This document shows, in pieces, positions 8,810 through 64,000 of a stretch of 64,000 nucleotides of DNA. The notes beneath the pieces are model-generated. The model was not told the DNA's origin, ran no database searches, and was given only the letters and a program-made list of their open reading frames with translations. Location: assembly GCF_000444995.1 (NCBI RefSeq), contig NC_022050.1, positions 1 to 64,000 on the forward strand. The letters run 5' to 3'. The position numbers were made by a program, and so were the translations under genes. Within the stretch, counting starts at the first letter, position 1; the number at the start of each line of letters is the position of its first letter. Source of the stretch: Paracoccus aminophilus JCM 7686. Its GTDB lineage: Bacteria > Pseudomonadota > Alphaproteobacteria > Rhodobacterales > Rhodobacteraceae.

Positions 8810-8838
8810 GGGGCCTTGGCTGTGAGCCCGTCTCGAGG

Positions 8839-42219: not shown

Positions 42220-42561
42220 ATGCTGTACACCTTCGCGGAATTCCAGATTCAGGGCTATGTCGGCCGTAGAACCGAGCTTGGCGGCGGCAAGGTCCTGAAG
42301 GTCAGCATCGCCGCAACCGACAGCTGGAAGGACAAGGACAGCGGCGAGTTGCGCGAGCGCACTGACTGGAACACCGTCACCCTTTTTGAGCGCAGCACGG
42401 CGGGTTTCGCCTGGCTGAAGGAGAACCTGAAACCCGGCGACCTCGTCCATGTGAGGGGGCGGATCGGCGAGAGCAATTACGCCAAAGACGGGCAGACCGT
42501 CTATGAGACCTCACTCACGGCTGATCGCTTTGCAGTCGTGCCGGTCGGGAAAGATGGGTAA
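42220..42561 (+). CDS. Single-stranded DNA-binding protein (SSB-like)
   Basis: A 113-residue OB-fold protein: GYVGRRTELGGGKVLKVSIA, then DWNTVTLFERSTAGFAWLKE and DLVHVRGRIGESNYAKDGQ, matching SSB strands. The acidic C-terminal tail of classic SSB is absent. Plasmid SSBs protect transferred single strands on arrival. It follows virB6 after a 54-nt gap with a GGAG site, and overlaps the next frame by 8 nt. Confidence 0.85.
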   Translation: MLYTFAEFQIQGYVGRRTELGGGKVLKVSIAATDSWKDKDSGELRERTDWNTVTLFERSTAGFAWLKENLKPGDLVHVRGRIGESNYAKDGQTVYETSLTADRFAVVPVGKDG

Positions 42562-42808
42562 GGGTTGCACTGCAACCCGCCTTCGCAGCGGTCTTCTGAA
42601 CCAGATGTATCTCGCTGGCTATTCGGGCCGCCAGCCGCCACGCTGGCTGCGTCTGCTGCTGGCCGGCTCGTGCTGGCATCGGGCGTGGCTGCTCGGGCAG
42701 TTGGGCTTCTTCCTCGAGAACGGGATAGGCTACGGACCTGCCAACCCCTATCCCGGTTGCTTTTCGCCCGAGAAACGGGAGAAGGCGTCCTCTGAACAGG
42801 TGCCGTAG
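42554..42808 (+). CDS. Hypothetical protein downstream of ssb
   Basis: A possible 84-residue protein starting inside the end of the ssb-like gene. It has a short hydrophobic segment (WLRLLLAGSCWHRAWLLGQL) and a Pro/Gly-rich end. No family recognised. Its ribosome-binding signal would be in the ssb coding region (GGGAAAG). It could be spurious, but the overlap and strand agree with the operon. Confidence 0.45.
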   Translation: MGKGCTATRLRSGLLNQMYLAGYSGRQPPRWLRLLLAGSCWHRAWLLGQLGFFLENGIGYGPANPYPGCFSPEKREKASSEQVP

Positions 42809-42857
42809 TGATCTGCGCCTGGCCCAAAGCTCTGTAACAGGGTCTTCCGGCTGTCAG

Positions 42858-43280
42858 TCACACTCTGACCCAAGGGTTAAGCAAGATCACCCCTGTGTCC
42901 CTGAAACCACCGGTGTTGCGGGTCACGACCGTGAAACCGTGGACCAGCCCCGTCGCCGCTATCAGCGCATCACGTTCTGATCTCGGATCAGGAACATGTA
43001 GACCCGCGCATCGCAGCGCCACGCTTGTATCCACCGGCAAAATCCGGTCCTGGAACTCCGGCAGGACCCGTTCTGCGAACCATGCCCGCAGCATGGCTCC
43101 CTGCACCGCATCGCGCCGCTCGATGCGGCGCACACCGATATCCAGCTCCATCACGGTAATTGCCGAGATGAACAGTGCCCCGGCATCCTGACCGCCCAGC
43201 CAGGCGGTGACATTGGCATCGGCCCTGCCATCCCCCGCCTTGCGCAACTCGGAAATCACATTGGTGTCGAGCAGGAACAT
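42858..43280 (-). CDS. vapC: VapC-type PIN-domain toxin
   Basis: Ribonuclease toxin of 140 residues. The PIN active-site acids are in FLLDTNVISELRK (Asp near 5), TVMELDIGVRR (Glu), ERDALIAATGLVHG (Asp) and TRNTGGF at the end. VapC toxins cut tRNA or rRNA. It lies directly behind its antitoxin (1-nt overlap) and is the first gene of the cargo span when read from the virB side. Confidence 0.92.
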   Translation of the reverse strand: MFLLDTNVISELRKAGDGRADANVTAWLGGQDAGALFISAITVMELDIGVRRIERRDAVQGAMLRAWFAERVLPEFQDRILPVDTSVALRCAGLHVPDPRSERDALIAATGLVHGFTVVTRNTGGFRDTGVILLNPWVRV

Positions 43281-43534
43281 CAGGACAGATCGGCCGGTCG
43301 GGACATGATCTCAGCCTTTGTCGGCTCGAACTCGATGTCAGACAGTCCTGGCACCGCAAGAGCATCGATGATGTTGCGGCGCTGGCCGCTCATCTGCTGA
43401 TACTGGGCAAAGCTCATAAGGACATGGGCCGGCCGGCCTCTGTCCGTGATGAACACCGGACCGTCAAGCGCCGCACGTTTTGCCCGGGCCAGATCCTGGT
43501 TCAGTTCACGGCTGCTGATCGTATGAATCGTCAT
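43280..43534 (-). CDS. vapB: Phd/YefM-type antitoxin
   Basis: Antitoxin of 84 residues. ISSRELNQDLARAKRAA is the Phd/YefM DNA-binding start and VFITDRGRPAHVLMSFAQYQ the conserved core; the rest should cover the toxin. CGGAGG precedes the ATG. The upstream stretch holds GTTACGTTAC (43551-43560), a likely autoregulatory site. Confidence 0.9.
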   Translation of the reverse strand: MTIHTISSRELNQDLARAKRAALDGPVFITDRGRPAHVLMSFAQYQQMSGQRRNIIDALAVPGLSDIEFEPTKAEIMSRPADLS

Positions 43535-43630
43535 CGCGGCCTCCGATTGTGGTTACGTTACTACATGTGAAACCTGCGACGAAAGTCAAGGCTGGGGATC
43601 TTGGCGATCAGTCTTCTGCGGATGAGCGGG

Positions 43631-43676
43631 AAGGGCGGAGAGCCGCCTGACGGCAGTGCGGCATGGCGTCCGCAGC
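43631..43676. repeat. Dispersed repeat, copy A
   Basis: Contains AAGGGCGGAGAGC followed by GACGGCAGTGCGGC and CGTCCGCAGC. It matches copies B (43735) and C (53835) in the same order with small differences in spacing. Confidence 0.65.
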
Positions 43677-43734
43677 AACATTACGGGAGCAACCGTTCGG
43701 ACAGCCCGCAGCGAGATCGCAACTGATCCAGCCG

Positions 43735-43781
43735 AAAGGGCGGAAAGCGGTCATGCGGCAGTGCGGCTTGGCACCCGCAGC
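43735..43781. repeat. Dispersed repeat, copy B
   Basis: AAAGGGCGGAAAGCGGTCAT, then GCGGCAGTGCGGCTTGGC and ACCCGCAGC. Same arrangement as copy A about 105 nt to the left; it is followed by AATTGCGGTCATTCGTGACC. Confidence 0.65.
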
Positions 43782-44036
43782 TAGGCTAGAATTGCGGTCA
43801 TTCGTGACCGAACAGAGAGCAGAAACTCCCATTAGTCGGCGCGCCTCGCCAGCTCGCCTATACCCTCGGGAAAACAGCGGCTTTTTCCGAGGACAAGTAG
43901 AGGATAGCGCGGCACAATATTGCGCGGAGCTAACTTCAGAAACACTCTTATTTGGAATGCATGGCGGTGCGCTACCGTGCACTTGCATCACAGGCGACGG
44001 AGCGGGACAACAGAAGGAAGGATACTAGGGGGGCGT

Positions 44037-47000
44037 ATGATCAATCGAGGTTCGGAATGGCACCGTTGGGAGCCGCATATCCATGCGCCCGGCACCTTGT
44101 TCAACAATCAGTTCAAAGGTCCGAATGCCTGGAGCGACTACTTCACTAGTCTCGAACAGGCAGCGCCGGTAATCCGCGCGATCGCGGTGACCGACTATTA
44201 TTGCACCGATACCTACCAGCACTTCGTGCGGGAAATGAAGGAAAACGGCCGCCTACCGGAGGTCGCGCTTGTCTTCCCCAACGTCGAGCTACGGCTCGAC
44301 GTCGCCACGGTGAAAGAACGCTGGACCAACATTCACCTTCTCGTCTGCCCCGACGATCCGAAGCATGTCTCGGAGGTTGAGCGATTTCTCAGCCGGCTGA
44401 GATTTGAAGCCTTTGGTGACAACTTTGCCTGCACGCGAGAGGATCTTGCTAAGCTAGCGCGGAAGTCCAAGCCGGAGCTGACGGATGAGCGGGCGGCGTT
44501 TCGCCATGGCGCCTCACAGTTCAAGGTCAACTTTGGCAAGTTGCGCGAGGAGTACGGCAGGAGCGATTGGGCGAAAGAGAACATCTTGATCGCAGTCGCC
44601 GGCGCCGAAACCGATGGCACGTCCGGCATCCGCGACGCCAATGACGCGACCCTGCGTCAGGAGATCGAGAAGTTCGCGCACGTCATTTTTGCCAGTAGCC
44701 CGGCGCAGCGGGATTTCTGGCTCGGCCGGAAAAGCGGCGTCGGAGAGGATCTGCTTCGCGAGCGATATGACGGGTGCAAACCGTGCTTGCATGGCAGCGA
44801 TGCGCATGAGCAGACGACCGTCGCCAAACCCGATGGCAATCGCTATTCTTGGATTAAAGGCGCGCTGGAATTCGATGCGCTACGCCAAGCCTACATCGAT
44901 CCCGCAGGACGGGCTTATGTCGGACCTCATCCCCCATTTCGGGCGACACCAGCACGCGTTGTCGCGGAGGTTGAATTGACCGGCGCCGACTGGGCGCAGA
45001 CGCCCAAGCTCGCGCTCAACCCCGGTTTGGTCGCCATCATTGGCGCCCGGGGCTCGGGCAAGACCGCGCTTGCGGATGCGATCGCGGCGGGATGCGACGC
45101 GACGGATGGACGATTGAGCAATGCGTCATTTATCGTGCGAGCGCGTGAGCATCTCGACGGGGTGGGTGTCCGGCTGAGCTGGGAGACCGGGGATCCGTCG
45201 GTGCGCCCCTTGCTCGACGACTCGTTTGATCCGTCGCTCTACCCGCGAGCGCGGTATCTTTCCCAGAAATTCGTCGAGGAGCTTTGCTCGGCTGATGGCC
45301 TCAACGACGAATTGCTGAACGAGATCGAACGGGTCATTTTTGAAGCGCACAGCACGCTGGAACGCGACGGAGCGACGGATTTTGGCGAGCTGCTGGAGTT
45401 GCGGACGATCGTGTTGCGCGACAACCGCGACCGTGACGAAGAGGCCATCGAGACACTCTCCGATCAAATCGGGCTCGAGCGCGAGAAGCAGAGCCAGATC
45501 GCGGGCCTCAAATCGCAGATCACTCAGAAGGACGCGCTGATCGCCGACTATATCAAGAGCCGAGACAAGTTGGTAACCGCAGGCAGCGCGGAGCGCGTCG
45601 CGCGGCTGAATGCGCTCACTGAAGCGGCCGATTATGTCCGGACGCAGATTCGGCTTTGGTCGCAGGAGAGCCAGGCTCTGCGCTCATTGCAGAACGACGT
45701 ATCGGATTTCCGAACAAATCGCGCGCCGATGGCCCTGCGAACGACCAAGCAGAATTTCGTTGGTGCACATCTCGACGACACGTCGTGGGAGGTATTCCGG
45801 CAGACCTACGCTGGCAACGTCGACGGGACATTGACCGAGCGGCTGGCCAAGGCCGAGAAGGCGACTGCGGGGTGGCGGGGTAAAGAGCTGCCGCGTAAGG
45901 CGAGCGACCAGGAGCCATTTGTCGCTGACGACGCCGAGCTGAAGCAATTGTCGCTCGGCGAACTTGAGGCCGAGATCGGCCGCATTCAGCGCCTCATCAA
46001 CATTGATACGGACACCGCCAATCGCTTGCGCACGATCACCACCAAGATCGGGGACGAGAACGCCGCACTGAAACGTCTGAAGGATTCCCTAGCCGACTGC
46101 GAAGGCGCGGCGGCGCGGACCACCCAGCTCCAATCCGATCGAGAGAAGGCCTATTTGCGGGTCTTCGAATCCATCGCCGCCGAAGAGCAAGTGCTGCACG
46201 CGCTGTATCGACCGCTCATGGACCGGCTTGCGCAAGCGTCCGGGACACTGCGCAAATTGTCGTTCTCGGTGTCGCGCCATGCGGACGTGCATCGCTGGGC
46301 GACGGAGGGCGAAGGCCTGTTCGACAAACGGCGCACCGGCCCGTTCAAGGGCGTAGGCACGCTGGAGGCCTGGGCCGACGCGCTGCTGAAGCCGGCGTGG
46401 GAATCGGGCGATCCAAAAGCCGTTGCCGAGGCCATGGCGGGATTCCGTCAGGCCCATCAGGCCGAACTACTCGATCTCTCCGAGGTGCCGCGATCACAGC
46501 AAGCGGATTATCGCTCCTGGCTGAGACGCTTCGCCAAGTGGCTTTACGGCACCAGCCATATCGAGATCAGCTACAGTATCGACTACGAAGCCGTCGATAT
46601 CCGCAAGCTCTCTCCGGGCACGCGCGGCATCGTCCTGCTGCTGCTCTATCTTGCCTTGGACGACAGCGATGACCGCCCGCTGATCATCGACCAGCCGGAG
46701 GAAAACCTCGATCCGAAGTCGATCTTCGACGAGTTGGTAGAGCTATTCATCGCCGCGAAAAACGTACGCCAGGTCATTATGGTGACGCACAACGCGAACC
46801 TCGTCGTCAACACGGACGCCGATCAGGTCATCGTCGCGTTCTCCGGCACTCATACGCCCGGCAAGCTGCCACCCATCCGCTATTTGTCGGGTGGCCTCGA
46901 AAACGCAGATATGCGCAAACATGTCTGCGATATCCTCGAAGGCGGCGAGCGCGCCTTCAAGGAGCGCGCCCGCCGTCTTCGCGTCCGCCTAGATAGATAG
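44037..47000 (+). CDS. trlF: TrlF-type PHP-ATPase (SMC-like)
   Basis: A 987-residue protein with an N-terminal PHP-like metal-hydrolase domain and a large AAA/SMC-like ATPase. PHP motifs: WEPHIHAPGT, AIAVTDYYC, FPNVELRLDV and CLHGSDAHE (about residues 15-260). Walker A IIGARGSGKTALADA lies near residue 335, a long charged coiled-coil follows (about 440-800), and the C-terminal half has LSPGTRGIVLLLLYLAL (signature-like) and PLIIDQPEENLDP (Walker B, about 881), then MVTHNANLVV. The layout matches proteins annotated as TrlF, thought to be defence effectors. The ATG at 44037 follows AGGGGGG. First gene of a four-gene operon. Confidence 0.85.
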   Translation: MINRGSEWHRWEPHIHAPGTLFNNQFKGPNAWSDYFTSLEQAAPVIRAIAVTDYYCTDTYQHFVREMKENGRLPEVALVFPNVELRLDVATVKERWTNIHLLVCPDDPKHVSEVERFLSRLRFEAFGDNFACTREDLAKLARKSKPELTDERAAFRHGASQFKVNFGKLREEYGRSDWAKENILIAVAGAETDGTSGIRDANDATLRQEIEKFAHVIFASSPAQRDFWLGRKSGVGEDLLRERYDGCKPCLHGSDAHEQTTVAKPDGNRYSWIKGALEFDALRQAYIDPAGRAYVGPHPPFRATPARVVAEVELTGADWAQTPKLALNPGLVAIIGARGSGKTALADAIAAGCDATDGRLSNASFIVRAREHLDGVGVRLSWETGDPSVRPLLDDSFDPSLYPRARYLSQKFVEELCSADGLNDELLNEIERVIFEAHSTLERDGATDFGELLELRTIVLRDNRDRDEEAIETLSDQIGLEREKQSQIAGLKSQITQKDALIADYIKSRDKLVTAGSAERVARLNALTEAADYVRTQIRLWSQESQALRSLQNDVSDFRTNRAPMALRTTKQNFVGAHLDDTSWEVFRQTYAGNVDGTLTERLAKAEKATAGWRGKELPRKASDQEPFVADDAELKQLSLGELEAEIGRIQRLINIDTDTANRLRTITTKIGDENAALKRLKDSLADCEGAAARTTQLQSDREKAYLRVFESIAAEEQVLHALYRPLMDRLAQASGTLRKLSFSVSRHADVHRWATEGEGLFDKRRTGPFKGVGTLEAWADALLKPAWESGDPKAVAEAMAGFRQAHQAELLDLSEVPRSQQADYRSWLRRFAKWLYGTSHIEISYSIDYEAVDIRKLSPGTRGIVLLLLYLALDDSDDRPLIIDQPEENLDPKSIFDELVELFIAAKNVRQVIMVTHNANLVVNTDADQVIVAFSGTHTPGKLPPIRYLSGGLENADMRKHVCDILEGGERAFKERARRLRVRLDR

Positions 47001-47009
47001 GACAGCGAG

Positions 47010-47696
47010 ATGGCTGCGCACAAAATTGCCGTCTCTGATACGGGACAGCCCCTCGGCCCGCTGGCAGAGCGCGGCTGGTTTCTTCATTGCAGCGAAGGCA
47101 TGGACTCAGACGCCACAGTGAAGGATCTGGGCAAGTTCGGTGATCGCCTCGGCACTCGCGTTGCAGGCCGCGCCGGCGCGCTCGAAGAAGTCATCGAGCC
47201 TCACGGTGCCGACAATGCGCATCCGCGATCCTTGAGCGTCCGCTACGGCCTAGACGCCTTGCCGTTCCACACAGAACTCAGCCATCGCACCAGACCATGC
47301 CGCTACCTTCTCCTCGGGTGTATCGACCCAGGATCGCCAGCAGCGGCGACGATGCTGCTCGACTGGCGAACGCTTGGCTTTTCGTCGGAAGAGCTTGACC
47401 TTCTCGAAGGCACGCCGGTGCTCGTTCGTAGCGGTCGGCGTTCCTTCTACTCGACGATCCTCGCGCCGGGAGGAGCCTTCCTGCGATACGATCCCGGCTG
47501 CCTTGAAGCCGTTGACCAGCGCGGCCGTATGGCCCTGGCGCTCATCGAGGACCGGATCGCCGCCGCGTCGCCCCAAGCCCATCACTGGCGCCAGGGCGAC
47601 ATCCTTATCATCGACAACTGGCGCGTCCTTCACGGGCGCAGTCCGTCGGGCCCAGGGTCCGGCCGACGCCTCGCAAGGATTCTCATCGATGCCTGA
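47010..47696 (+). CDS. TauD/TfdA-like Fe(II)/2-oxoglutarate oxygenase
   Basis: A 228-residue protein with the double-stranded beta-helix signatures of TauD-type dioxygenases: the metal pair H87-T-E89 in LPFHTELSHRTRPC, the distal metal His208 in IIDNWRVLHGRSP, and an Arg 11-12 residues later (R219/R220) as the 2-oxoglutarate anchor. All three metal ligands are present, so it may be active, though shorter than most TauD enzymes (280-300). Lies 9 nt after the TrlF-type gene and overlaps the following gene by 8 nt, so it is part of the operon. A hydroxylase modifying nucleic acid, nucleotide or protein would be one idea; the substrate is unknown. Confidence 0.7.
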   Translation: MAAHKIAVSDTGQPLGPLAERGWFLHCSEGMDSDATVKDLGKFGDRLGTRVAGRAGALEEVIEPHGADNAHPRSLSVRYGLDALPFHTELSHRTRPCRYLLLGCIDPGSPAAATMLLDWRTLGFSSEELDLLEGTPVLVRSGRRSFYSTILAPGGAFLRYDPGCLEAVDQRGRMALALIEDRIAAASPQAHHWRQGDILIIDNWRVLHGRSPSGPGSGRRLARILIDA

Positions 47697-48627
47697 CGAC
47701 GTCTTCATCGCCATAAACGGCGACGCGCTCCACGCGAAATCGAAGGTCTACATCGGCCGCGCGCTGGCACGGAAGAGCGCCGGCGATCTCGACGAGTATC
47801 AGCTCTGGGCCTCTCTTGCGCTTGAGCTGCTCGGCAAGGCCGCGCTCGCCCGCAAGCATCCGAGCCTCGTGGTCGATCCGATGCACTGGCAGTCGATGTT
47901 CGTCGCCGCCGGCATCAACGTCACCACAGACGTAAAGACGATCACCGCCAAGACCTTGTTCGAGCGCCTGGCCCATCTCGTCCCGCGCTTCGACAAGACG
48001 GTCCAGAAATTCTGCCAGGACATCGCGGAGCGTCGAAACGCCGAGCTGCACTCGGCCGATCTTCCGTTCCGGACGATGCGACTCGACGCTTGGGAGGCAC
48101 GCTATTGGCATGCGAGCGACACGATCTTGCACGAGATGGGTTCATCCCTGGAGCAATGGCTCGGCGCGGCCGATGCAAAAGCGCCCCGCCAGCTTCTCGA
48201 TGAGGCCGCCAAGGCCCTCGCGGCGGCCGTCAAGCTGCGCGTCGAGGCCGCCCGCGAGCAATTCGAGGCGTTGAAGAGGGCAGAGCGCGAGCGCCTGACA
48301 GCCGAAGCAGAATTGCGCGAACCGCAGCACCAGATGGGAATCTTCAAGGGCCGCTACGACGAGATCTGGTCGGAGAGCTGCCCGGCCTGCAAATGCCGAG
48401 CCTTCATGACCGGCGAGCAAACCGGCGAAGACATCAGCGAGGAGCGCGATGAGCATGCGATCTGGGAAGTCGTCGACCGCGAGTTCGTGGGTGAAGAGTT
48501 TCGCTGCCCGACATGCGATTTGACGCTGATGGGAAGCGACGAAATCGACGCCTCTGGGCTGAGCTACATCCACGAGGACCAACAAGAGCGTGAAATGGAG
48601 TACGAGCCGGACTACGGTAATGACTGA
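47689..48627 (+). CDS. HEPN-like protein with C-terminal zinc ribbon
   Basis: A 312-residue protein, not named in any family I know. The N-terminal half is all-helical and carries AERRNAELHSAD, an R-x4-H motif (R116...H121) like that of HEPN ribonucleases, preceded by ALELLGKAALARKHP, also HEPN-like. A coiled-coil (about 185-225) leads to a zinc ribbon: SCPACKC and, 50 residues later, FRCPTC. The very C-terminus is acidic. The start ATG at 47689 overlaps the oxygenase stop. HEPN function is inferred only from the motif and the defence-type context; a DUF4145-like binding role is another possibility. Confidence 0.55.
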   Translation: MPDDVFIAINGDALHAKSKVYIGRALARKSAGDLDEYQLWASLALELLGKAALARKHPSLVVDPMHWQSMFVAAGINVTTDVKTITAKTLFERLAHLVPRFDKTVQKFCQDIAERRNAELHSADLPFRTMRLDAWEARYWHASDTILHEMGSSLEQWLGAADAKAPRQLLDEAAKALAAAVKLRVEAAREQFEALKRAERERLTAEAELREPQHQMGIFKGRYDEIWSESCPACKCRAFMTGEQTGEDISEERDEHAIWEVVDREFVGEEFRCPTCDLTLMGSDEIDASGLSYIHEDQQEREMEYEPDYGND

Positions 48628-48662
48628 TCGCAAATGGGGACAGGCGCAACGGGGCAAGGCCT

Positions 48663-49163
48663 ATGCCGGTTTACTTCTTAGGCGAGGATGACAACGGGTG
48701 CTCGCCGATCAAGGTCGGCGTCGCCAAGGACATTGGCCGGCGGAAGAGCGACCTGCAGACCGGCAATCCGCTCGAACTCAAACTACTCGGCTGGATCACA
48801 TCGGCCGACGATTTCGAGACCGAGCGCGATCTGCATCGACGCCTCGCATCCCGGCGCGGCCGCGGCGAGTGGTTCTACATCGAGCCGGCCGATGTCCTGC
48901 CTTTCCTGATGGAGGTCGGACAGCGCGGTTTCGTCGCAAAGAACGCCGATGCCTTCGAGATCACCGGCTACGATCGCGACGCCATTCCTGAATATCTCGG
49001 TGTGTGGGAATGGGCTGACCTCGAAATCGACGAATGCTGTCCCTTCTGCGGATGCCTGGGCGGAATGCATTTTCAGGAGGCCTCTCAGATGCACTACTGC
49101 ATCCAGTGCGACACGCTCACCGACTTCTCGGAACTGTCCCCGGATGACCGCGACGGGCCATAG
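48663..49163 (+). CDS. GIY-YIG (T5orf172/Mug113-like) protein with zinc ribbon
   Basis: A 166-residue protein. The N-terminal 85 residues match the T5orf172 branch of GIY-YIG nucleases: MPVYFLGEDDNGCSPIKVG, DIGRRKSDLQTGNPLELKL, ETERDLHRRLASRRGRGEWF. The core Arg and the Glu/His of the fold are kept. The C-terminal part has a zinc ribbon (ECCPFCGCLGG and YCIQCD). Lies 35 nt after the HEPN-like gene, same strand. May cut DNA or be an inactive binding module. Confidence 0.72.
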   Translation: MPVYFLGEDDNGCSPIKVGVAKDIGRRKSDLQTGNPLELKLLGWITSADDFETERDLHRRLASRRGRGEWFYIEPADVLPFLMEVGQRGFVAKNADAFEITGYDRDAIPEYLGVWEWADLEIDECCPFCGCLGGMHFQEASQMHYCIQCDTLTDFSELSPDDRDGP

Positions 49164-49567
49164 GATTGACTGGCTCCTCCTGTATCAGGACGAACTTAGC
49201 GATCTTGATAATAGTTATCAAGTAGTGGGCAAGTGATGGTGGGTTTTGGTCGATTACCAACCAAGTTCCGGAGGCCAAACTGGTTCGCACCGACTGCCGA
49301 TCAGTTCGACAATCAGGCTGCTTGGGCGCAGGCCCTTGAGAGCACTTTGGATGATCGTTCGACGACGCGAAGGCACGGGCAGATCACTGTGCAGCATGGT
49401 GAGAGAACACCTCTGTGCCACCGTCGCCCAGGATGAGCGCTTCATTGCAGGCTGGCCGGTTTCTGGTCTTGGGCCGGGGGTGTCGGTCTGCGAATGTACC
49501 ACAGCTACCACGCTGGATTCACCAAATGAATTGCTCACAGGACCTGTGCAAAAGAACTTACCAGCAC
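49164..49567. other. Gap between the TrlF operon and the exporter operon
   Basis: About 400 bp without a recognised gene. Frames of 67 and 105 codons are present on the two strands but show no known domain and differ from neighbours in composition. The two flanking operons converge here, so a terminator is expected, but I see no clear hairpin. Confidence 0.5.
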
Positions 49568-50263
49568 TCATTGCTTTCCGGAATCTGACACGATGCGCCC
49601 ATCCTCCAGAGTCAGGATCCGGTCCGCGCGGTCGAGGATCCTGGGATCGTGGGTCACAAGCAGTGTTGTTGTGCCGCGCGCCGCGCCTAACCGCTTTAGG
49701 AGGTCCACCACATCGGCGGCGCTGTCCTTGTCCAACGCAGCGGTCGGTTCATCTGCCAGCACAAGCGCCGGGTTTCCGACCAGCGCACGCGCCACGGCCA
49801 CCCGCTGCTTCTGGCCGCCGGACAGGTTCGCGGGCAAGTAATCCATCCGGTCGGACAGCCCGACCAGACCAAGCGCGCGCGCCGCTGCCTTTTGTGCGAT
49901 GTCATCCGGCACGCCGGGGCGCACCTGTGCCCCCATGACGACATTTTGCGCGGCGGTCAGGCTTTCATGTAGGTTATGAGCCTGAAAGATGAAGCCGAGT
50001 TGCTGACGCTGCCGCGTAAGTTCGTCCGCGCCTGCGCCCAGCAATTCGCGGCCAAGCAACCGCACGGAGCCGTCCTGCACGGCCCGCAGGCACCCGACCA
50101 GCGTCAGTAGCGTGGTCTTGCCCGAACCCGACGGGCCCATCAGCACCGTGAAACTTCCGCGCGGCAGGCTGAGGGTGATGTCGAGCATGGCCTGTTTGCG
50201 GGCGTCACCCGTTCCGAACCAGTGGTTGAGTTCCTTTACCGCAACGATGGGCGCATCTGTCAT
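49568..50263 (-). CDS. ABC exporter ATPase (DevA/LolD-like)
   Basis: ATPase of a MacB/DevBCA-type exporter, 231 residues. Walker A GPSGSGKTTLLTLVG, signature LSGGQKQRVAVARAL, Walker B ALVLADEPTAALD, H-loop LLVTHDPRILD, all intact. LQRQQLGFIFQAHNLHESL-type Q-loop features (here RQQLGFIFQAHNLHESLT) match DevA. The start ATG 50263 has AAAGG upstream; a GTG at 50272 is possible. Last gene of a leftward operon. Confidence 0.88.
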   Translation of the reverse strand: MTDAPIVAVKELNHWFGTGDARKQAMLDITLSLPRGSFTVLMGPSGSGKTTLLTLVGCLRAVQDGSVRLLGRELLGAGADELTRQRQQLGFIFQAHNLHESLTAAQNVVMGAQVRPGVPDDIAQKAAARALGLVGLSDRMDYLPANLSGGQKQRVAVARALVGNPALVLADEPTAALDKDSAADVVDLLKRLGAARGTTTLLVTHDPRILDRADRILTLEDGRIVSDSGKQ

Positions 50264-54103: not shown

Positions 54104-55759
54104 TCATTCAATGACCTCCGCACCATCTCCAGCGCCCTTCGCGGATCGTTTAGCTTTCGCCTTCGCGCCAGACTTTGGCTTCTCGATCCATGCGAAAGCC
54201 CATTTGTAGCCGAGAGCATGCAATTCGCGCGCTGCCTGTCGGAACGACACCAAGCTGAAGAAGGGAAGTTTCGGCTTATCCGATGCAACAATGACGCTGT
54301 AGACGACGGTGAAATCACCACGGGTGAAGTCAGTCCCGGAATTTGGGATGATCTCCTCGTAACCGGTCTGTCCGGTTTCAGCCTGGACCGCGATCACTTC
54401 GTTTCGAACGCTGTCGCGTGACGGCGGGTCGGTGGCAAGGACACGCGCGGAGACGGTTCCTTGACTGAAAAGGTGACTGAGTCGAGAGGAGGACGTCTTG
54501 TCCTTAACATGGATCAGTTGACGCCCACGGCCTAGAAAGTCGCAGGCTTCAATCTTACTTGCAGCACCTGTCGGCTTGATAAGCCGACGATCTAGGCAGA
54601 CCATGTCCGCATCAAGGCCCGCGACGCGCTTGTTGTAGGTCTCTTCTGTCTCGTCAGCCTCAGCGGCAGGCATATCGACCTTGCTTGTCGTGTCGAAAAA
54701 CTCTTGCACAGCTTTAGCTAGGTCCTGGTCAATCTGATACCAGCGGCCTCCAGAGAAAACGTAGGTCAGGCCATCGAATTCTGTTTCGAACACTATGCAT
54801 TCCCGTAACTTCCACTTCCCACCACAGTCGTGACCATCATCATCGACTTCGTGGACAGTGTGATTGCGGAGGTCCTCGTCCGAGTAACCGGCTTTCTCGC
54901 GCTCCTTCAATGCGTCCAGGTAACCGGGCAAGTCGAGGTCGGCATAGAGCTGCCAGCTTCGAAAACCCTTGTAGCGGATGAGGCTTGACTTCTCAGGGTC
55001 GTAAATGACCGGAAATGCGAGGTGAATACCGTCTGTCTCGCCTTCGTCAACCGCCTTCGCCAAAGCTCCGACCAGCTTGGCGTCCAGCTTGTCGATCAAT
55101 TCTTGCTCACGGATGTGTCGAATCTGGTCGATCCAGCCGAAGTCGGCTTTGTAGCTGGTCTTCTGGTAGATTGCATACGTGTCCGCACAGGCCTGGGCGA
55201 GTTTCGCAATCTCAAGCTTTCGGTTGAGCGTTAGGCCGTCGGTCCCTGCCACATAGGAACCGAACGCGTCATCTTTGGGTGTCCCTGCCAACCCGCGGAC
55301 GAGGTCGCGCTCGATGTCGATGGCGAAGGCAGTCTGATCGGAGCCCCGGCTGGTCTGCGTGCGGCGGGACAAAGTATTCTCATCGGGTGTCCGAACGTCC
55401 GCGCTTTTCAATTGCTTCGGGTCAACAGCATTGAGGACGACGCGCAGCCCAAAATCCTGCTCGAACGCCGCAGGATCGAGCTTGACGTGACCCATGCCAA
55501 AAGACACGGCGAACCATCGCCCTGACGCTGGGACGAACACGAGCCCGAAGGCTGTATGGTTGAAGACTTTCTTCTTGTCGTCTTCCGACAGTTCGAGGAA
55601 GCGCGCCCATTTTGGCGCGCCGCCGCCAAGCGTTGCCAATGAAATGAGAGCGCCTTCCAGCTTGTCCCACGATGCGAGATCAACACCGTCGCGAACTGCG
55701 TCAGCGGGGGCGAGACCATCTCTCAAGAGGCGAATCGAAAGCTTCTGGATATTGCTCAT
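54104..55759 (-). CDS. TIGR04141/DUF6119 family protein
   Basis: A 551-residue protein of the sporadically distributed TIGR04141 (DUF6119) family. Visible family features: the start (QKLSIRLLRDGLAPADAVRD), GRWFAVSFGMGHVKLDP, ALAGTPKD-like linker and the Cys-containing block DDDGHDCGGKWKLRECIVF followed by YVFSGGRWYQIDQD. A basic C-terminal tail (KAKAKRSAKGAG). The function is unknown; its patchy distribution and neighbours suggest a mobile defence role. It overlaps the preceding gene's stop by 4 nt. Confidence 0.78.
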   Translation of the reverse strand: MSNIQKLSIRLLRDGLAPADAVRDGVDLASWDKLEGALISLATLGGGAPKWARFLELSEDDKKKVFNHTAFGLVFVPASGRWFAVSFGMGHVKLDPAAFEQDFGLRVVLNAVDPKQLKSADVRTPDENTLSRRTQTSRGSDQTAFAIDIERDLVRGLAGTPKDDAFGSYVAGTDGLTLNRKLEIAKLAQACADTYAIYQKTSYKADFGWIDQIRHIREQELIDKLDAKLVGALAKAVDEGETDGIHLAFPVIYDPEKSSLIRYKGFRSWQLYADLDLPGYLDALKEREKAGYSDEDLRNHTVHEVDDDGHDCGGKWKLRECIVFETEFDGLTYVFSGGRWYQIDQDLAKAVQEFFDTTSKVDMPAAEADETEETYNKRVAGLDADMVCLDRRLIKPTGAASKIEACDFLGRGRQLIHVKDKTSSSRLSHLFSQGTVSARVLATDPPSRDSVRNEVIAVQAETGQTGYEEIIPNSGTDFTRGDFTVVYSVIVASDKPKLPFFSLVSFRQAARELHALGYKWAFAWIEKPKSGAKAKAKRSAKGAGDGAEVIE

Positions 55760-57096
55760 TTAGCGGCCTCCATTTCGGTCACATGGGGAGGTGGGGTGTG
55801 CTTGATGGCGATCGTGACTGTCTTCCCGGTTTCCAGCACCTGCCGGACAATCTCGCTGAGTACAGCGGATTGCTCAATCGAAGTGCCTACCCACGATCCG
55901 GCCACGAGCCCGACAAACTCCGAATTGTTGATTCGACGACCGACGTTCTTGAAGGTCAGAACCTTGCCCCCGCGCGGCCCCGTGAACAGACCAGCGACAT
56001 CTGCCCGCTTCCATAAATCGAGAGGCAGATAGATACCCTTGAAGAGCCCTTTGTCGTCCGGGTTGAAGACAACGCGCGGACAGAATTTCAGGAAAAATGG
56101 GTTATCCGAAAAGCGGAACCCGTCAGGGTGCTTGCCACTTGGGACCTTCCTGATCTCCTCCAGAAGGGTCTCCATCCGCTCAACTTCGTCGCAGAACTGA
56201 TCCTTCGCTTGCCAACGAAATTCCACCTCGTCTTCGCGCTTCTCCATCGCCTTGTACTGGACCATTACGAAGCTACGGTAAGCTTCGTTGAAGTAGATCA
56301 GGTCGGCGCCCGTCTGTTGTTCGAGGGGTAGACGGTTAGCCATGATCACCGTCAAACGTTTTGACGAATCTTCATCGCTCGCGAACACCTTCGAGCCGTA
56401 GTGGGTGGTCTCACCCATAGCTTCAAAGCCCGGCACCGTAGAGAAGTCGGACAAAAGCATGGCATCTTCCCGAACCTGTGCCCCCGGCAGTCCATCCAGG
56501 AAGGATTGCTGTGAAGCGTCCCTTGGGGTCCACGCCAAGAGATCATCTCGCGATATACCAGCAATCTCAAGTGCGAGGCCGAGCGTTTCCTTCTGGTAGG
56601 CGAGGTTTTCGCGGGCACGGGGCTCGAGCCGCCGCAGCGCTTGGGCGCGACGCTCGGAATAGCGCGCAAGGCGCGGGCTGACGGTCTCATCGAGTTGCGT
56701 AATACGATCAACAAATGCGCCGAGGGATTTCGGTGGGAGAAGGCCGCCTGTTTCCAAGCGATGCTTAACGTGCCGGGCAACGCGTGTGCCGATACCAGCA
56801 AGGATCTCATCGAAGCTCACGGGCCGCTTCAGCGGTTGGAGCTCTTCGAGATTCAGTCGGTCAAGGCCTGTGCCCGCTGACTGTCCCTTTCGGCCGCCGG
56901 CGATATGGGTGATGAAGCCATCCTCGAAGGACGCGAAGACGCAAAGCGGCGCTCTTCGGCTGTGGTCGAAGCGGGAAACAGGTTCCGAAACAAAGGGTTT
57001 TGGCGAATAGAAGGAACCGCCGTGCTCGGCTTCGTCGAGAAGCAGCTTTCTCCTTTGCGTGGGTACCTGCAAAATGTAGCCACCAGCCGCCACCAT
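55756..57096 (-). CDS. Unrecognised 446-residue partner of the DUF6119 gene
   Basis: I do not recognise this family. The start (MVAAGGYILQVPTQRRKLLL) has no signal peptide. Middle: VARHVKHRLETGGLLPPKSL and a helix-rich stretch with many Arg (RRAQALRRLEPRARENLAYQ). The C-terminal part has alternating strands (DLIYFNEAYRSFVMVQYKAM). No metal or nucleotide motif is clear. Translation is probably coupled with DUF6119 (4-nt overlap), so the two proteins likely act together. The neighbouring ietS gene is on the same strand 265 bp upstream. Confidence 0.6.
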   Translation of the reverse strand: MVAAGGYILQVPTQRRKLLLDEAEHGGSFYSPKPFVSEPVSRFDHSRRAPLCVFASFEDGFITHIAGGRKGQSAGTGLDRLNLEELQPLKRPVSFDEILAGIGTRVARHVKHRLETGGLLPPKSLGAFVDRITQLDETVSPRLARYSERRAQALRRLEPRARENLAYQKETLGLALEIAGISRDDLLAWTPRDASQQSFLDGLPGAQVREDAMLLSDFSTVPGFEAMGETTHYGSKVFASDEDSSKRLTVIMANRLPLEQQTGADLIYFNEAYRSFVMVQYKAMEKREDEVEFRWQAKDQFCDEVERMETLLEEIRKVPSGKHPDGFRFSDNPFFLKFCPRVVFNPDDKGLFKGIYLPLDLWKRADVAGLFTGPRGGKVLTFKNVGRRINNSEFVGLVAGSWVGTSIEQSAVLSEIVRQVLETGKTVTIAIKHTPPPHVTEMEAAK

Positions 57097-57361: not shown

Positions 57362-59584
57362 TTATGTGCGCAGCGGCACGTCGAGTATTGGTCGCAGTGG
57401 TTCGAGTTGAGTAGCGTATTTTCGCACAACTTGATCGTATAGGTCAGAGATACCCTTTGCCTGTACACTCACAACAAGCGCATATGGCAAATTAGGGGCG
57501 CTGGAAAAGTTTCGTCCTTCGATTCTCGAGTTATAGTGAATATCGAAGACAGGGTTCAGCAGCGAGTTGCCCCGCATTCGTTTCGTCGCGTACAGGCAGT
57601 TTTCCCATTTCATCGCATCACGGCGCAGCTCGTCTTCACCGGCCCCGCTTGGGGAGGAGCCAAAGAAAGATTTCGAGTCGGGATGGACCTGGCCGTCCCG
57701 GCTGAAGCGCTCATCATGCGGGCGGAACGTAACTTCGAGTCCTGCTCGGGTATAGTTTCCTGGATGGTGAGGGTCAGTCTGAGATTTATAGACAACCGTT
57801 GCGGAGAGAGAAACCATGCCTGCGATTTCTCCTGCGGGAACTGGGATTGCAGCGCGGATATACTTTGCCGGGGATATCTCCCCTTGATAAACGATGCGGA
57901 CCTCATCATCGGCGCACAATACAATGTCATCGATTTCTTGCGCTGCTCGACCCCAGCCGACTTCGCGCATATCGTGATCTCGGCGCTCGGCGGTATGGAC
58001 GAGTAGCGCACGTATCGCGAGATGATTTAGGTTCTTGCCAAAATGTGCCCGAACTCCGCTTGCCATGCGTATAATACTTGGCGTGGCGAATGATGTCCCA
58101 CCTGTGCCGACAACTGCGGGATTCATCTCAGGACTTAACACGAGGAACGGTCGTTCTATTGAACCGCCAAACCCGACGAGGTCAGGTTTTATTAGGCCGG
58201 GACTGCGCCCTGGCCCCTTTGAACTGTAAGGGGCACGCTGCCAATCTTTATCGGGGGTGTTACACGCTCCCACGGCCAGGGCGTTCACGCAGTCTGCTGG
58301 AACTTGGACACGGTCTAGGCCGAGTATCGCGTCTCCGTCTCCATCATTTCCGACAGCAACTGCAGCCAATGTCGATGTGTTGGACAAGCGATCATCAAGG
58401 ACGGCTGTCCAAGCGTGCACGTCGTCATCCTCAATCGGAAGGCTCGGACCGATACTCAGGTTGATGAAATCGTAGGTCTGGCTAGACAGAACACCTTCTA
58501 TTCGCTCAAGCACTTCGTAAAGTTCATGAAGGTTCTGGGCCGGATTGTCGTCAAGGACCCGGTAGTGGTCGATCGGCGCAAAAGGACGAGGTGCTGGGCG
58601 CCGTGGATCCAGGGTGCCGAACAGGGCCGCTGAGCTAACCGCTACGCCGTGCTCGTGGAACTCGGCACTTGCTGGACGCATTCCGTGCAGCTCGTAAGGC
58701 GTAACCCACTGCGTGATCGGATGACCTGCGGGCACTCCACCGTCAAAGATTGCAACGCGCACGTCGTTCGAAATCGGAGCATCGACGGGTAAGACTGGGC
58801 GTGCCGCCGGCAGGCCGGGGGATCGGATCATCGGACGAAGGACGCGGAGCTCTGGCATCCTGCGCAGCGCACGCACAGTTGAAAAAGTCGCAACTTCTTC
58901 GGCTCGTTCAGCGGGGGCATCAAGCTCTAAGAAGCAAAGGCCCTTGGCGTAAAAGCGTCGTCCAAGCTCGATCGGAACGTCACGGGCGCGCAAGAACCGC
59001 TGGAAAGCAGACAATATGTCTGCCTCTCCCTCCATGCCGTCCGCGTGAAGCACAACTTCCATGGGAAGGACACCTTTACTCGGCATGCTACCCTTGATCT
59101 TGTCGCTCGGCGATGGTGCCGCAATGACTTCTATGGCTCCTAGGTCATCCGCACCCCGGCGGTTGGACGCCCAATGCGATAAGCCCTCGCTCCAATGTCG
59201 CAGTGCGGCTCGGGAGCCACGCGCGAACAATTCCGTTGTCATCGCATCGACGGGCTCGCGGTCACGGGAGCGCTTCTCGGGCTTCACTCTTCGAGGGCGG
59301 CTACCGACAACTTCGATCCCCACGTCGCGTAATAGGTCTGTCGGAAAGTAGGATTTGGCAATGTACTCGGGGTTGAGGGTTAGCGAGACGATTGCTTGAT
59401 CGTTTGGATAGGCATCTGCCGGCAGTCGATCAAGGTCGACGACCGCTTGATCAAGCATCGGCACCAAGCGGCGCCTCGCTTCTTCGAACGTGTAGGGCGC
59501 GGCCTTAGGTCCGCCTCCGCCCCTGACCGTTACATCCGAAGTCAGGCGCTCACCGCGACCCAGAAGAAAGTTCTGTTTCATCAT
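57362..59584 (-). CDS. ietS: Subtilisin-like (S8) serine protease IetS
   Basis: A 740-residue cytoplasmic S8 peptidase without signal peptide. Catalytic triad: Asp281 in VRVAIFDGGVPAGHP, His312 in EFHEHGVAVSSAALFG, Ser498 in GTGGTSFATPSI; the oxyanion Asn is in VAVGNDGDG (about 413). A long N-terminal region (1-270) is specific to this subgroup. Paired with an upstream AAA ATPase, it corresponds to the IetS/IetA pair known from Agrobacterium plasmids as a stability and incompatibility factor and reported in screens for phage defence. The start has a weak AG-rich site. Confidence 0.85.
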   Translation of the reverse strand: MMKQNFLLGRGERLTSDVTVRGGGGPKAAPYTFEEARRRLVPMLDQAVVDLDRLPADAYPNDQAIVSLTLNPEYIAKSYFPTDLLRDVGIEVVGSRPRRVKPEKRSRDREPVDAMTTELFARGSRAALRHWSEGLSHWASNRRGADDLGAIEVIAAPSPSDKIKGSMPSKGVLPMEVVLHADGMEGEADILSAFQRFLRARDVPIELGRRFYAKGLCFLELDAPAERAEEVATFSTVRALRRMPELRVLRPMIRSPGLPAARPVLPVDAPISNDVRVAIFDGGVPAGHPITQWVTPYELHGMRPASAEFHEHGVAVSSAALFGTLDPRRPAPRPFAPIDHYRVLDDNPAQNLHELYEVLERIEGVLSSQTYDFINLSIGPSLPIEDDDVHAWTAVLDDRLSNTSTLAAVAVGNDGDGDAILGLDRVQVPADCVNALAVGACNTPDKDWQRAPYSSKGPGRSPGLIKPDLVGFGGSIERPFLVLSPEMNPAVVGTGGTSFATPSIIRMASGVRAHFGKNLNHLAIRALLVHTAERRDHDMREVGWGRAAQEIDDIVLCADDEVRIVYQGEISPAKYIRAAIPVPAGEIAGMVSLSATVVYKSQTDPHHPGNYTRAGLEVTFRPHDERFSRDGQVHPDSKSFFGSSPSGAGEDELRRDAMKWENCLYATKRMRGNSLLNPVFDIHYNSRIEGRNFSSAPNLPYALVVSVQAKGISDLYDQVVRKYATQLEPLRPILDVPLRT

Positions 59585-59605
59585 TCCCTCACTCCGAATC
59601 GTTCC

Positions 59606-60712
59606 CTAAAAACCTTTTGAACGCAGACGGTCGCGGATCGTCTCGCGTGCCACACCTGTCAGTTCGTGCGCACGCCTCTGCGATGCAATACCGGACTCGG
59701 CAAGTTGCACCGCTAGTTCGATGCGCTCATTCTTAGGGCGATCATTGACCGACAAAAGGGTGGCCAAGTGATCGCTGATCGATGTTCCATTGAGTGCGGC
59801 CGAGCGCCTTGCACTATTCACTTTCCGCTCGATGTCACTGAAAGATTGCCCTGACAAGGCGAGCGATAGAACGTCCGACCATTCCCTAGCATTGGGCTCA
59901 ACAAGCTCTAGAAGGCTGTTCACGAAAGCACGCACCGCCTCGCGATCGGGCAGGCCAAACGCGACTTGTTCCTCGAAGCGTCGCCACACTGCGGGGTCAA
60001 GGAGTTCGGCATGGTTTGTTGCCGCCAAGAGCAGGCCCGACGACGGCCAGTCATCCAGTTGTTGCAGCAATACTGTTACGAGCCGTTTCAATTCACCGAT
60101 TTCAGCCGCATCATCCCGGCGCTTGGCAATGGCGTCTAGCTCGTCAACCAGAAGCACGCAGTCGATCGACTTTGCATAGTCGAGAACGTAACGCAAATTC
60201 GTCCCCGTCCGCCCCAGATAGCTGCTCATCACAGCTGACAGATCTAGAATAAGAAGCGGCCTATCCAGTTCGCGAGCAATCCATCGCGCCGCCATCGTTT
60301 TGCCAACCCCAGGCGGGCCAGTGAACAGGACTGTGCGTGTTGGCTCTAGTCCGGCATGAGTCAGCGCCTCTAGGCGCATGCGCTCCTCGACCAGGCGCCT
60401 TAACATGTCCTGTACGGCGTCAGCATAGATGGGCTCATGCGGGAGTACTGGGCGCTCCTCCTGCCGCAACAACTGGAACCGGCTATCCGTATCTACCGGC
60501 AGGGCGACTGTCGGAGAGCGGCGCAGGGTCGATGAGCGGGTCGGACGCTTGCGTAACAGCTCCACAAGCGCGCTCGCCAGGCTTGGATCTTCAGTCCGCT
60601 TAGCAATGCGATGGAGGAACGCGTGCACATCTTGCTGGCGATCAGACAAGGCAATCCGCGCCAGGTGGATGAAATCTTCTGAAATTTTTTCAGATTCTTC
60701 CATTTTGCTCAT
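59606..60712 (-). CDS. ietA: AAA ATPase IetA
   Basis: A 368-residue AAA+ ATPase. Walker A FTGPPGVGKTMAARWIA, Walker B CVLLVDELDAIAKRRDD, then the sensor-1 region LLAATNHAELLDPAVWRRF (arginine finger RRF). The C-terminal 30 residues form a helix-turn-helix-like end (SQRRAHELTGVARETIRDR). It probably controls the protease IetS, 21 nt downstream. I prefer the ATG at 60712, which has GAGG 5-6 nt upstream; ATGs at 60715 and 60730 are also in frame. A 35-nt palindrome is just upstream. Confidence 0.85.
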   Translation of the reverse strand: MSKMEESEKISEDFIHLARIALSDRQQDVHAFLHRIAKRTEDPSLASALVELLRKRPTRSSTLRRSPTVALPVDTDSRFQLLRQEERPVLPHEPIYADAVQDMLRRLVEERMRLEALTHAGLEPTRTVLFTGPPGVGKTMAARWIARELDRPLLILDLSAVMSSYLGRTGTNLRYVLDYAKSIDCVLLVDELDAIAKRRDDAAEIGELKRLVTVLLQQLDDWPSSGLLLAATNHAELLDPAVWRRFEEQVAFGLPDREAVRAFVNSLLELVEPNAREWSDVLSLALSGQSFSDIERKVNSARRSAALNGTSISDHLATLLSVNDRPKNERIELAVQLAESGIASQRRAHELTGVARETIRDRLRSKGF

Positions 60713-60752
60713 CATTGCCTCGCACTTCATAGATATATTTGAACTGTATAGT

Positions 60753-63138: not shown

Positions 63139-64000
63139 GGGTGATCCCCTTCTCGCCATGGGAGAGGGAATGCCTCAGATCCTCGCCGTGGCGCTCTTCC
63201 ACGATCCGCTCGAGCACCCGGTCCATTGCCGGATCATTGGCATGAACTTCTCTGGCCTCGAGATATGCCCGCGCCAGCTGCAGCTGCTCGAGCGCATTGG
63301 GGGTGATCCGGTCCAGCACCTTCGCATCGCCGCGGTGCAGATCATCGATTTCGGCTGGGGTCAGGCGGTCATTGACCTGCTCGACAAAGCGCTGGCGCGC
63401 CGCATCCGAGGCCAGATCCACCTTGCCATCGACCGCCTGTCGCAAGGCGGAGGCCAGTTGGGGCGCTGTCGCATCCAGATTGCGGCGTTCCGCATAAGCT
63501 TGACGGGTGTCGTCCTCAACCTCGGCCAGCCTCTCGATGATACGGTCGCGGGACGCGCCTGCGGCATGGAGCTGGTTGATTTCCAGGCTGACGGCATCGC
63601 GGATTTGCTCTTGTGGGGTCTCGGCCCGGAGGCGCGCCATCTCGCGAACTTCTTCGGTGATCGGACCGAGCCGGATCGACGGATCACGCTGCGCGAGATC
63701 CATATCGCCGGCATGGAGGGTACGATGTGCGGCCCGAATGCCGTTCGCTGGAGGCTGAATGACATCGGTGGCCTTTTCCCAGGCCATGGTGGCAATTTCG
63801 GCATGCTGGGGCGAGCGCTCGGCAAAGCGGTCGAAGGCCTCTTTCGCCTCGGCCACCTGCTTCTCGCCATCACGCCGCGCCCGCGGGTCATCGGAATAGG
63901 GGTAGCTGAAATCCGTCCGCTGGAACTGTTTGATCAAGGCACGGAACTCCTCCCGTTCCGTCGGACTGTAGATGTCCGGCTCGCTGCGCAGGGTTTCGTT
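63131..64000 (-). CDS. Conjugation-region protein, 5' end beyond the window
   Basis: The frame is open to the window edge (NETLRSEPDIYSPTEREEFR is coded by 63940-64000), so the TTG at 63937 is probably not the real start. At least 289 residues are visible. They are hydrophilic and helical (DGEKQVAEAKEAFDRFAER; DRIIERLAEVEDDTRQAYAE) with no enzyme motif. Overlaps virD4 by 8 nt, so likely co-transcribed; it may be the C-terminal part of a relaxase or an accessory relaxosome protein. The identity cannot be decided here. Confidence 0.6.
   Translation of the reverse strand, partial: NETLRSEPDIYSPTEREEFRALIKQFQRTDFSYPYSDDPRARRDGEKQVAEAKEAFDRFAERSPQHAEIATMAWEKATDVIQPPANGIRAAHRTLHAGDMDLAQRDPSIRLGPITEEVREMARLRAETPQEQIRDAVSLEINQLHAAGASRDRIIERLAEVEDDTRQAYAERRNLDATAPQLASALRQAVDGKVDLASDAARQRFVEQVNDRLTPAEIDDLHRGDAKVLDRITPNALEQLQLARAYLEAREVHANDPAMDRVLERIVEERHGEDLRHSLSHGEKGITHG

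Follow-up and report, generated by a model that had tools for sequence, protein, structure and literature searches.

Pair conservation within the four-gene locus

The first 64 kb of a 202,421-bp contig of Paracoccus aminophilus JCM 7686 (NC_022050.1), hereafter the window, carries four consecutive open reading frames (ORFs) on the plus strand, which encode a TrlF-family ATPase (P0001), a TauD-type Fe(II)/2-oxoglutarate dioxygenase (P0002), a HEPN-domain protein (P0003) and a GIY-YIG-type protein (P0004). A sequence-only reading had taken them as one four-gene operon, possibly an undescribed defence system, and the locus therefore raises the question of which of these genes belong together and what they might do. 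The coordinates of the frames (Table 1) and their spacing in gene order, with a 9-nt gap, an 8-nt overlap (ATGCCTGA) and a 35-nt gap, were confirmed on the sequence. The conserved unit, as detailed below, is the TauD-HEPN pair, and the pairing is not due to chance.

A HEPN profile (A1), built from P0003 and its relatives, yielded 84 loci, namely the best 80 of 125 confirmed loci on genome contigs and four on viral contigs, and 11 additional plasmid loci brought the fetched set to 95; protein matches comprised 120 listed of 848 for HEPN and 120 listed of 350 for TauD. A same-strand TauD match lies directly upstream of HEPN in 83 of the 84 profile loci, including one with TauD cut by the contig edge (L024) and one with TauD broken (L029). 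The sole locus without TauD (L033) has a HEPN gene with a damaged N-terminus, which is matched by tblastn from residue 21 and by the profile from position 69, and which leaves an open frame of 299 aa. The same pair is held by the 11 plasmid loci, two of which (L003 and L009) have a broken HEPN frame. The frames of TauD and HEPN overlap in 73 of 91 measured pairs, by 4 nt in 50 of them and by 8 nt in 20, and the largest spacing is 53 nt.

The two genes also diverge together. TauD and HEPN distances are correlated with r = 0.95 over 89 pairs (L003, L009 and L029 excluded), against a maximum of 0.08 in 1000 permutations. TauD is the faster-diverging partner (mean identity 34% vs 40% for HEPN), and no sign of partner swapping was found, as no two loci combine TauD identity above 75% with HEPN identity below 70%; the reverse pattern, HEPN above 80% with TauD below 62%, occurs in 34 locus pairs.

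Evenly drawn genome samples, in which the phylum, class and family sets share genomes with one another and partly overlap the HEPN-profile loci, gave the same picture from both sides. Among 398 genomes of the phylum, HEPN was detected in seven and the TauD clade (>150 bits) in eight, seven of which have HEPN adjacent, while in the eighth TauD lies 136 nt from a contig end; all other TauD matches in this sample score at most 75 bits. In the class sample, five of 289 genomes have the TauD clade, all with adjacent HEPN, and six have HEPN, the sixth of which (G652) holds broken HEPN fragments and no TauD match. The family sample (198 genomes) contained HEPN in two, including the genome of the window. 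According to these counts, the TauD-HEPN pair occurs rarely and patchily, and the association is nearly obligate. Damaged loci comprise L003 and L045, with an intact TauD frame and a broken HEPN, L009 and L029, damaged in both genes, and L033 and G652, with a damaged HEPN and no TauD; a fully intact HEPN without TauD was seen at none of the loci examined.

By the genera named in their records, the profile loci belong to Alpha-, Beta- and Gammaproteobacteria, Verrucomicrobia, Planctomycetes, Gemmatimonadetes, Bacillota and Actinomycetota. The HEPN of a Burkholderiaceae locus (L018) is 87% identical to that of the window, which speaks for horizontal transfer. P0003 found no match in 50,697 phage records, and the four IMG/VR viral contigs with HEPN all carry it paired with TauD.

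TauD matches of 43-75 bits (L113-L116 and L127) fall outside the clade by score. L127, the one such locus that was read, contains no HEPN ORF; by eye, its 208-aa TauD-like protein (1336-1962) overlaps a nitroreductase-like ORF and is perhaps a peptide-modifying relative.

TrlF and GIY-YIG as optional neighbours

P0001 reaches 688 bits against the NCBIfam TrlF model NF045780 (cut-off 350), and P0004 matches MUG113 with 44.9 bits and T5orf172 with 33.5 bits. As for their association with the pair, a search with P0001 placed TrlF beside TauD-HEPN in 8 of the 95 fetched loci. Six of these have it upstream, 8-14 nt before TauD (L002, L013, L014, L015, L019 and L027), and two have a remote TrlF downstream (L005 and L058). 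A close GIY-YIG homologue stands beside the pair in two of the 95 (L002 and L013), with a weak remnant in L029, and the complete set of four was confined to a few close relatives in these data; three Agrobacterium vitis plasmids, grouped under one match, have all four products in their annotation. The flanks were adequate, with at least 3.5 kb upstream of TauD in 79 of 93 loci and at least 1 kb downstream of HEPN in 88 of 93, so room is not what limits the TrlF count. Moreover, of the 28 phylum genomes (out of 398) with a TrlF above the cut-off, that of the window alone has it linked to the pair; in G101 and G105 it lies on contigs other than that of the pair.

The TrlF of the window shares 55-57% identity with those of L002, L014, L015, L019 and L027, which are 84-92% alike among themselves (L013 was left out of this comparison), while against the same five loci the HEPN of the window is 79-96% and its TauD 58-82% identical. 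The TrlF slot is thus kept, and its occupant was either replaced by allele exchange or diverged fast on its own. A four-gene system as the conserved core was rejected on the TrlF and GIY-YIG counts, and the two are optional neighbours, separate genes recruited beside the pair. The earlier proposal had named as refuting outcomes a lack of co-occurrence, or conservation of TrlF alone: genes of the locus do co-occur, in that TauD and HEPN are paired, but the two conserved ones exclude TrlF.

In L029, the broken HEPN copy (8001-8861) contains a stretch, 8553-8852, that aligns at 35% with the C-terminal half of P0004, perhaps as the result of a deletion fusion.

Dioxygenase

P0002 passes the Pfam TauD model PF02668 with 57 bits (cut-off 27), in agreement with the TauD-like label given earlier. 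Residue conservation was taken from non-redundant subsets of the fetched loci (74 TauD and 59 HEPN proteins), and H87, R116 and H121, three of the active-site residues singled out by the sequence-only reading, proved to be genuinely conserved (Table 1). In the dioxygenase, the iron triad (HxD/E...H) and the Arg are complete and invariant, Arg219 being putatively assigned to 2-oxoglutarate binding from the spacing in TauD. The conserved residues stand at the same intervals as in Escherichia coli TauD, and the dioxygenase should therefore be active. In addition, T114 is Thr in 72 of 74 proteins and Ser in two, and an RxD motif (R159/D161) is invariant (74/74) and aligns with LRIDP of 6daw, NapI.

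Among the matches listed, the closest solved relatives are amino-acid hydroxylases (including AsnO) and other small-molecule oxygenases, and the substrates of the nearest ones are free Arg, Lys, Asn or proclavaminate; none is of the AlkB or TET type. These relatives favour an amino-acid-like substrate. P0002 has 228 aa, compared with 273-403 aa for the PDB chains matching below E 1e-6, and its model forms a single compact fold with no extra domain, judging from secondary structure. No PADLOC (2023) model was matched by the dioxygenase at E 1.

HEPN-domain protein and its C-terminal tail

P0003 reaches no family cut-off in Pfam or NCBIfam, and its only PADLOC match is DUF3644 (E 0.0067); by sequence, the PDB gave one chance-level match, Csf2 (E 0.055). 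The HEPN-like assignment of the sequence-only reading nevertheless holds, as the helical fold of the HEPN superfamily is present in the predicted model and RNAELH fits the R-x4-6-H motif of that superfamily, and the two together point to HEPN.

The end of the protein is predicted to be disordered, with a predicted local distance difference test score (pLDDT) below 50 at residues 310-312, and a motif [x][YD][GNH]N[DEC] closes the HEPN protein in 91 of 91 intact tails, which include near-identical copies (86 different proteins). This pattern was broadened once variants were seen, the first one having fitted 87 of 93; the count excludes L003 and L029 (3' end broken) as well as L009 and L045 (no HEPN frame passing the coordinate step), and includes the 5'-damaged L033. 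The Asn is kept in all tails, one to three residues from the C-terminus, while the plain alignment column at this position shows N in 44 of 59, since tail lengths vary. Both of its codons are in use (AAC 61, AAT 30), so selection acts on the protein. The tail is conserved although no neighbouring gene family is common to more than 8 of 91 loci. Since HEPN is almost never encoded apart from its dedicated hydroxylase, this disordered yet invariant terminal motif is best read as a site which that hydroxylase would recognise.

Table 1. Features of the TauD-HEPN pair and adjoining genes, in positions of the window
Feature	Coordinates	Strand	Basis
TrlF-family ATPase P0001, 987 aa, accessory in this subclade	44037..47000	+	NF045780, 688 bits
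TauD-type Fe(II)/2-oxoglutarate dioxygenase P0002, 228 aa, core gene 1	47010..47696	+	PF02668
Iron-ligand motif H87-T-E89	47268..47276	+	H 74/74, D/E 74/74
Second iron-ligand His208	47631..47633	+	H 74/74
Arg219, putative 2-oxoglutarate-binding Arg	47664..47666	+	R 74/74
TauD/HEPN reading-frame overlap, 8 nt	47689..47696	+	sequence
HEPN-domain protein P0003, 312 aa, core gene 2; beta-rich four-Cys domain and conserved tail at the C-terminus	47689..48627	+	
HEPN catalytic-type motif R116-N-A-E-L-H121	48034..48051	+	R 58/59, N 59/59, H 59/59
Four-cysteine (zinc-ribbon-like) site C231-x2-C234 ... C273-x2-C276	48379..48516	+	each Cys 59/59
Tail YEPDYGND at the C-terminus (predicted disorder at its end), candidate motif for modification at Asn311	48601..48624	+	pLDDT <50 at 310-312; motif Asn 91/91 intact tails
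GIY-YIG-type protein P0004, 166 aa, Cys-rich C-terminus, accessory	48663..49163	+	MUG113, T5orf172

Proposed mechanism and alternatives

In the HepT/MntA system, a HEPN toxin is reported to be silenced through modification by its partner MntA (PMC7641770). This precedent, together with the pairing and the tail motif, led to the proposal that the dioxygenase restrains the HEPN RNase in a two-component mobile module, most likely by hydroxylating HEPN itself, with Asn311 as the best candidate site; we give this reading a probability of about 0.45. HEPN would be the RNase effector, and the active dioxygenase would be dedicated to it, hydroxylating the disordered tail (written [x][YD][GN]N[DE] in its simpler form) and thereby keeping the RNase from acting in healthy cells. 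HEPN would be released, to cut RNA and stop growth, upon invasion or when dioxygenase activity falls through loss of the plasmid, of 2-oxoglutarate, Fe or O2, or through a phage product. In form, the module would resemble HEPN-MNT, in that a HEPN toxin would be countered by an enzyme that modifies it, but through hydroxylation in lieu of AMPylation. It shares with type VII toxin-antitoxin systems the adjacent two-gene arrangement and a partner enzyme of modifying type. The fully specified version is possible, with odds that we put well below even: a toxin-antitoxin/defence class in which the dioxygenase curbs HEPN by hydroxylating the Asn of a C-terminal linear motif, and in which O2, Fe and 2-oxoglutarate levels, or phage attack on them, would gate RNA cleavage, as a bacterial parallel of FIH asparaginyl hydroxylation.

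Hydroxylation might also act with the opposite sign, licensing or activating HEPN; the RNase would then need oxygen, iron and 2-oxoglutarate, and the dioxygenase would not be an antitoxin. Both the conserved tail and the lack of intact HEPN genes without dioxygenase among the loci examined are explained equally well by this alternative, but the pair looks like an antitoxin-toxin pair in gene order and overlap, the regulator first, the effector second and overlapping frames being a common order in such pairs. The damaged loci weakly agree with the toxin-antitoxin sign, since in L003 and L045 the break affects HEPN and spares the dioxygenase frame, which would be expected if HEPN is a toxin; two cases prove little, and we consider activation unlikely. 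A small-molecule route, in which the dioxygenase would make or remove an amino-acid-like metabolite sensed by the C-terminal domain of HEPN, draws on the substrates of the nearest solved relatives and on the invariant RxD motif shared with NapI. However, the short chain of P0002 means that parts of those enzymes are missing, and a ligand alone would leave the tail motif unexplained, so this route also has a low probability.

The sequence-only reading had suggested that the oxygenase modifies or senses a nucleic acid, and in such a scheme it would mark tRNA, rRNA or phage DNA/RNA and HEPN would cut RNA according to the mark, as an RNA-level restriction-modification pair. HEPN proteins are RNases, the four-Cys domain could bind nucleic acid, and tight pairing suits a modification-cleavage pair; the listed solved relatives, which hydroxylate amino acids or other small molecules, and the compact fold with no added domain make it very unlikely nonetheless. 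Equally little credence is given to one integrated four-gene defence system with TrlF as its sensor ATPase. The six closely spaced upstream TrlF genes, the two downstream ones and the Agrobacterium vitis plasmids are in keeping with it, but TrlF and GIY-YIG are mostly lacking beside the pair despite ample flanks, the TrlF of the window has been exchanged or has diverged separately from the pair, and a UvrD-type helicase, probably GajB, takes the upstream place at five other loci.

Other neighbours and defence context

A gene of one family, directly upstream of TauD, is shared by L007, L031, L077, L078 and L081, which belong to two different HEPN branches. In L007, it is annotated as a UvrD helicase and follows an ATP-dependent endonuclease; it is probably Gabija GajB, judging from two neighbours that match GajB models in a tally silent on which neighbours these are. 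Of the remaining neighbour families, the most frequent is present in 8 of 91 loci. In one branch, seven loci (L066, L067 and L071-L075) have HEPN immediately followed by a gene of one family, with products of about 679 aa.

From 204 ORFs considered in 54 loci, the 104 nearest ones (at least 110 aa) were compared with defence models, and they matched 176 PADLOC models at E 1e-10, while 104 control ORFs from the chromosome of the window's genome matched seven. These counts exaggerate the contrast: two proteins account for the 16 GajB models among the 25 listed rows, and a single genome, its ORFs crudely called, served as control. The 25 PADLOC matches listed include Gabija, LmuB, Ppl, mad3 and Fic, and the 25 Pfam matches listed include DUF3644, HipA, Fic, AbiEi, AbiH and HsdR as well as metabolic, transposase and transfer families. 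The defence context claimed earlier for the operon is thereby supported. With TrlF and GIY-YIG optional and the neighbours varied, the pair is a two-gene unit beside varying defence systems, a context from which an anti-phage role of TauD-HEPN may be proposed.

Host replicon and adjacent genes

The contig of the window (C6) is one of six in an assembly of 4.87 Mb, the contig C1 of which measures 3.61 Mb. A VirD4-like coupling protein at 61189-63159 and ORFs at about 35-42 kb, whose translations were read by eye as VirB-type transfer proteins, suggest that it is a conjugative plasmid. No RNA family reached its gathering score within 42500-49600, and promoter-like and terminator-like sites numbered one (1.4 in shuffles) and two (4.7 in shuffles), respectively.

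Upstream of the operon, on the opposite strand, lie a VapC-like PIN toxin (32 bits, below its cut-off) and a Phd-family antitoxin (42858-43534, minus strand). Farther downstream, the minus strand at 57362-60730 encodes an IetS-like peptidase (57362-59584) and an IetA-like ATPase (59606-60730), which PADLOC models match as a known anti-phage pair and which stay below the NCBIfam cut-offs. As well, a TIGR04141 'sporadically distributed' protein (54104-57096, minus strand, 438.7 bits) overlaps a 446-aa ORF with no PADLOC or NCBIfam match at E 1e-5, and the two are possibly a further two-gene module.

Comparison with known systems

The sequence-only reading knew of no described defence system with this combination, and no HEPN-dioxygenase module was found in the literature searched, most subscription papers and all preprints lying outside its scope. 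The main text of the 2013 HEPN survey contains none of the words 'dioxygenase', 'oxygenase' or 'TauD' (PMC3710099), and the relevant passages of two papers that co-mention HEPN, dioxygenase, toxin, antitoxin and defense are unrelated (PMC7159879 and PMC8195603). Among the matches listed, the name TrlF has unrelated uses only, going by title. Likewise, no toxin or defence RNase switched through protein hydroxylation by a 2-oxoglutarate dioxygenase was met in that literature.

As for individual systems, P0001 belongs with the TrlF / Ppl ATPases, and TrlF is usually unlinked to TauD-HEPN. For AbiV, a HEPN RNase of a two-component anti-phage system, the title of the paper mentions no dioxygenase partner, and no AbiV chain is among the PDB sequence matches of P0003. 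Clavaminate synthase, AsnO and VioC have longer chains and act on free amino acids, going by PDB titles; we know of no HEPN partner for them. The chemistry proposed here has precedents in unrelated protein families, namely tail-Asn hydroxylation by the asparaginyl hydroxylase FIH and the oxygen-dependent antitoxin of Hha-TomB.

The nearest parallel is HEPN-MNT, which differs in that its partner is a nucleotidyltransferase, whereas an Fe/2-oxoglutarate dioxygenase takes that place here. P0003 has Ala123 two positions beyond the catalytic His and so lacks the modified Tyr of HepT (RX4HXY), and it has the additional four-Cys domain and tail. The TauD-HEPN module is small, is present in distant phyla and offers a defined candidate site, and if the proposal is true, it would, beside the HEPN-MNT precedent, extend enzymatic antitoxins by a further chemistry and connect oxygen and central metabolism with systems of anti-phage defence or plasmid addiction.

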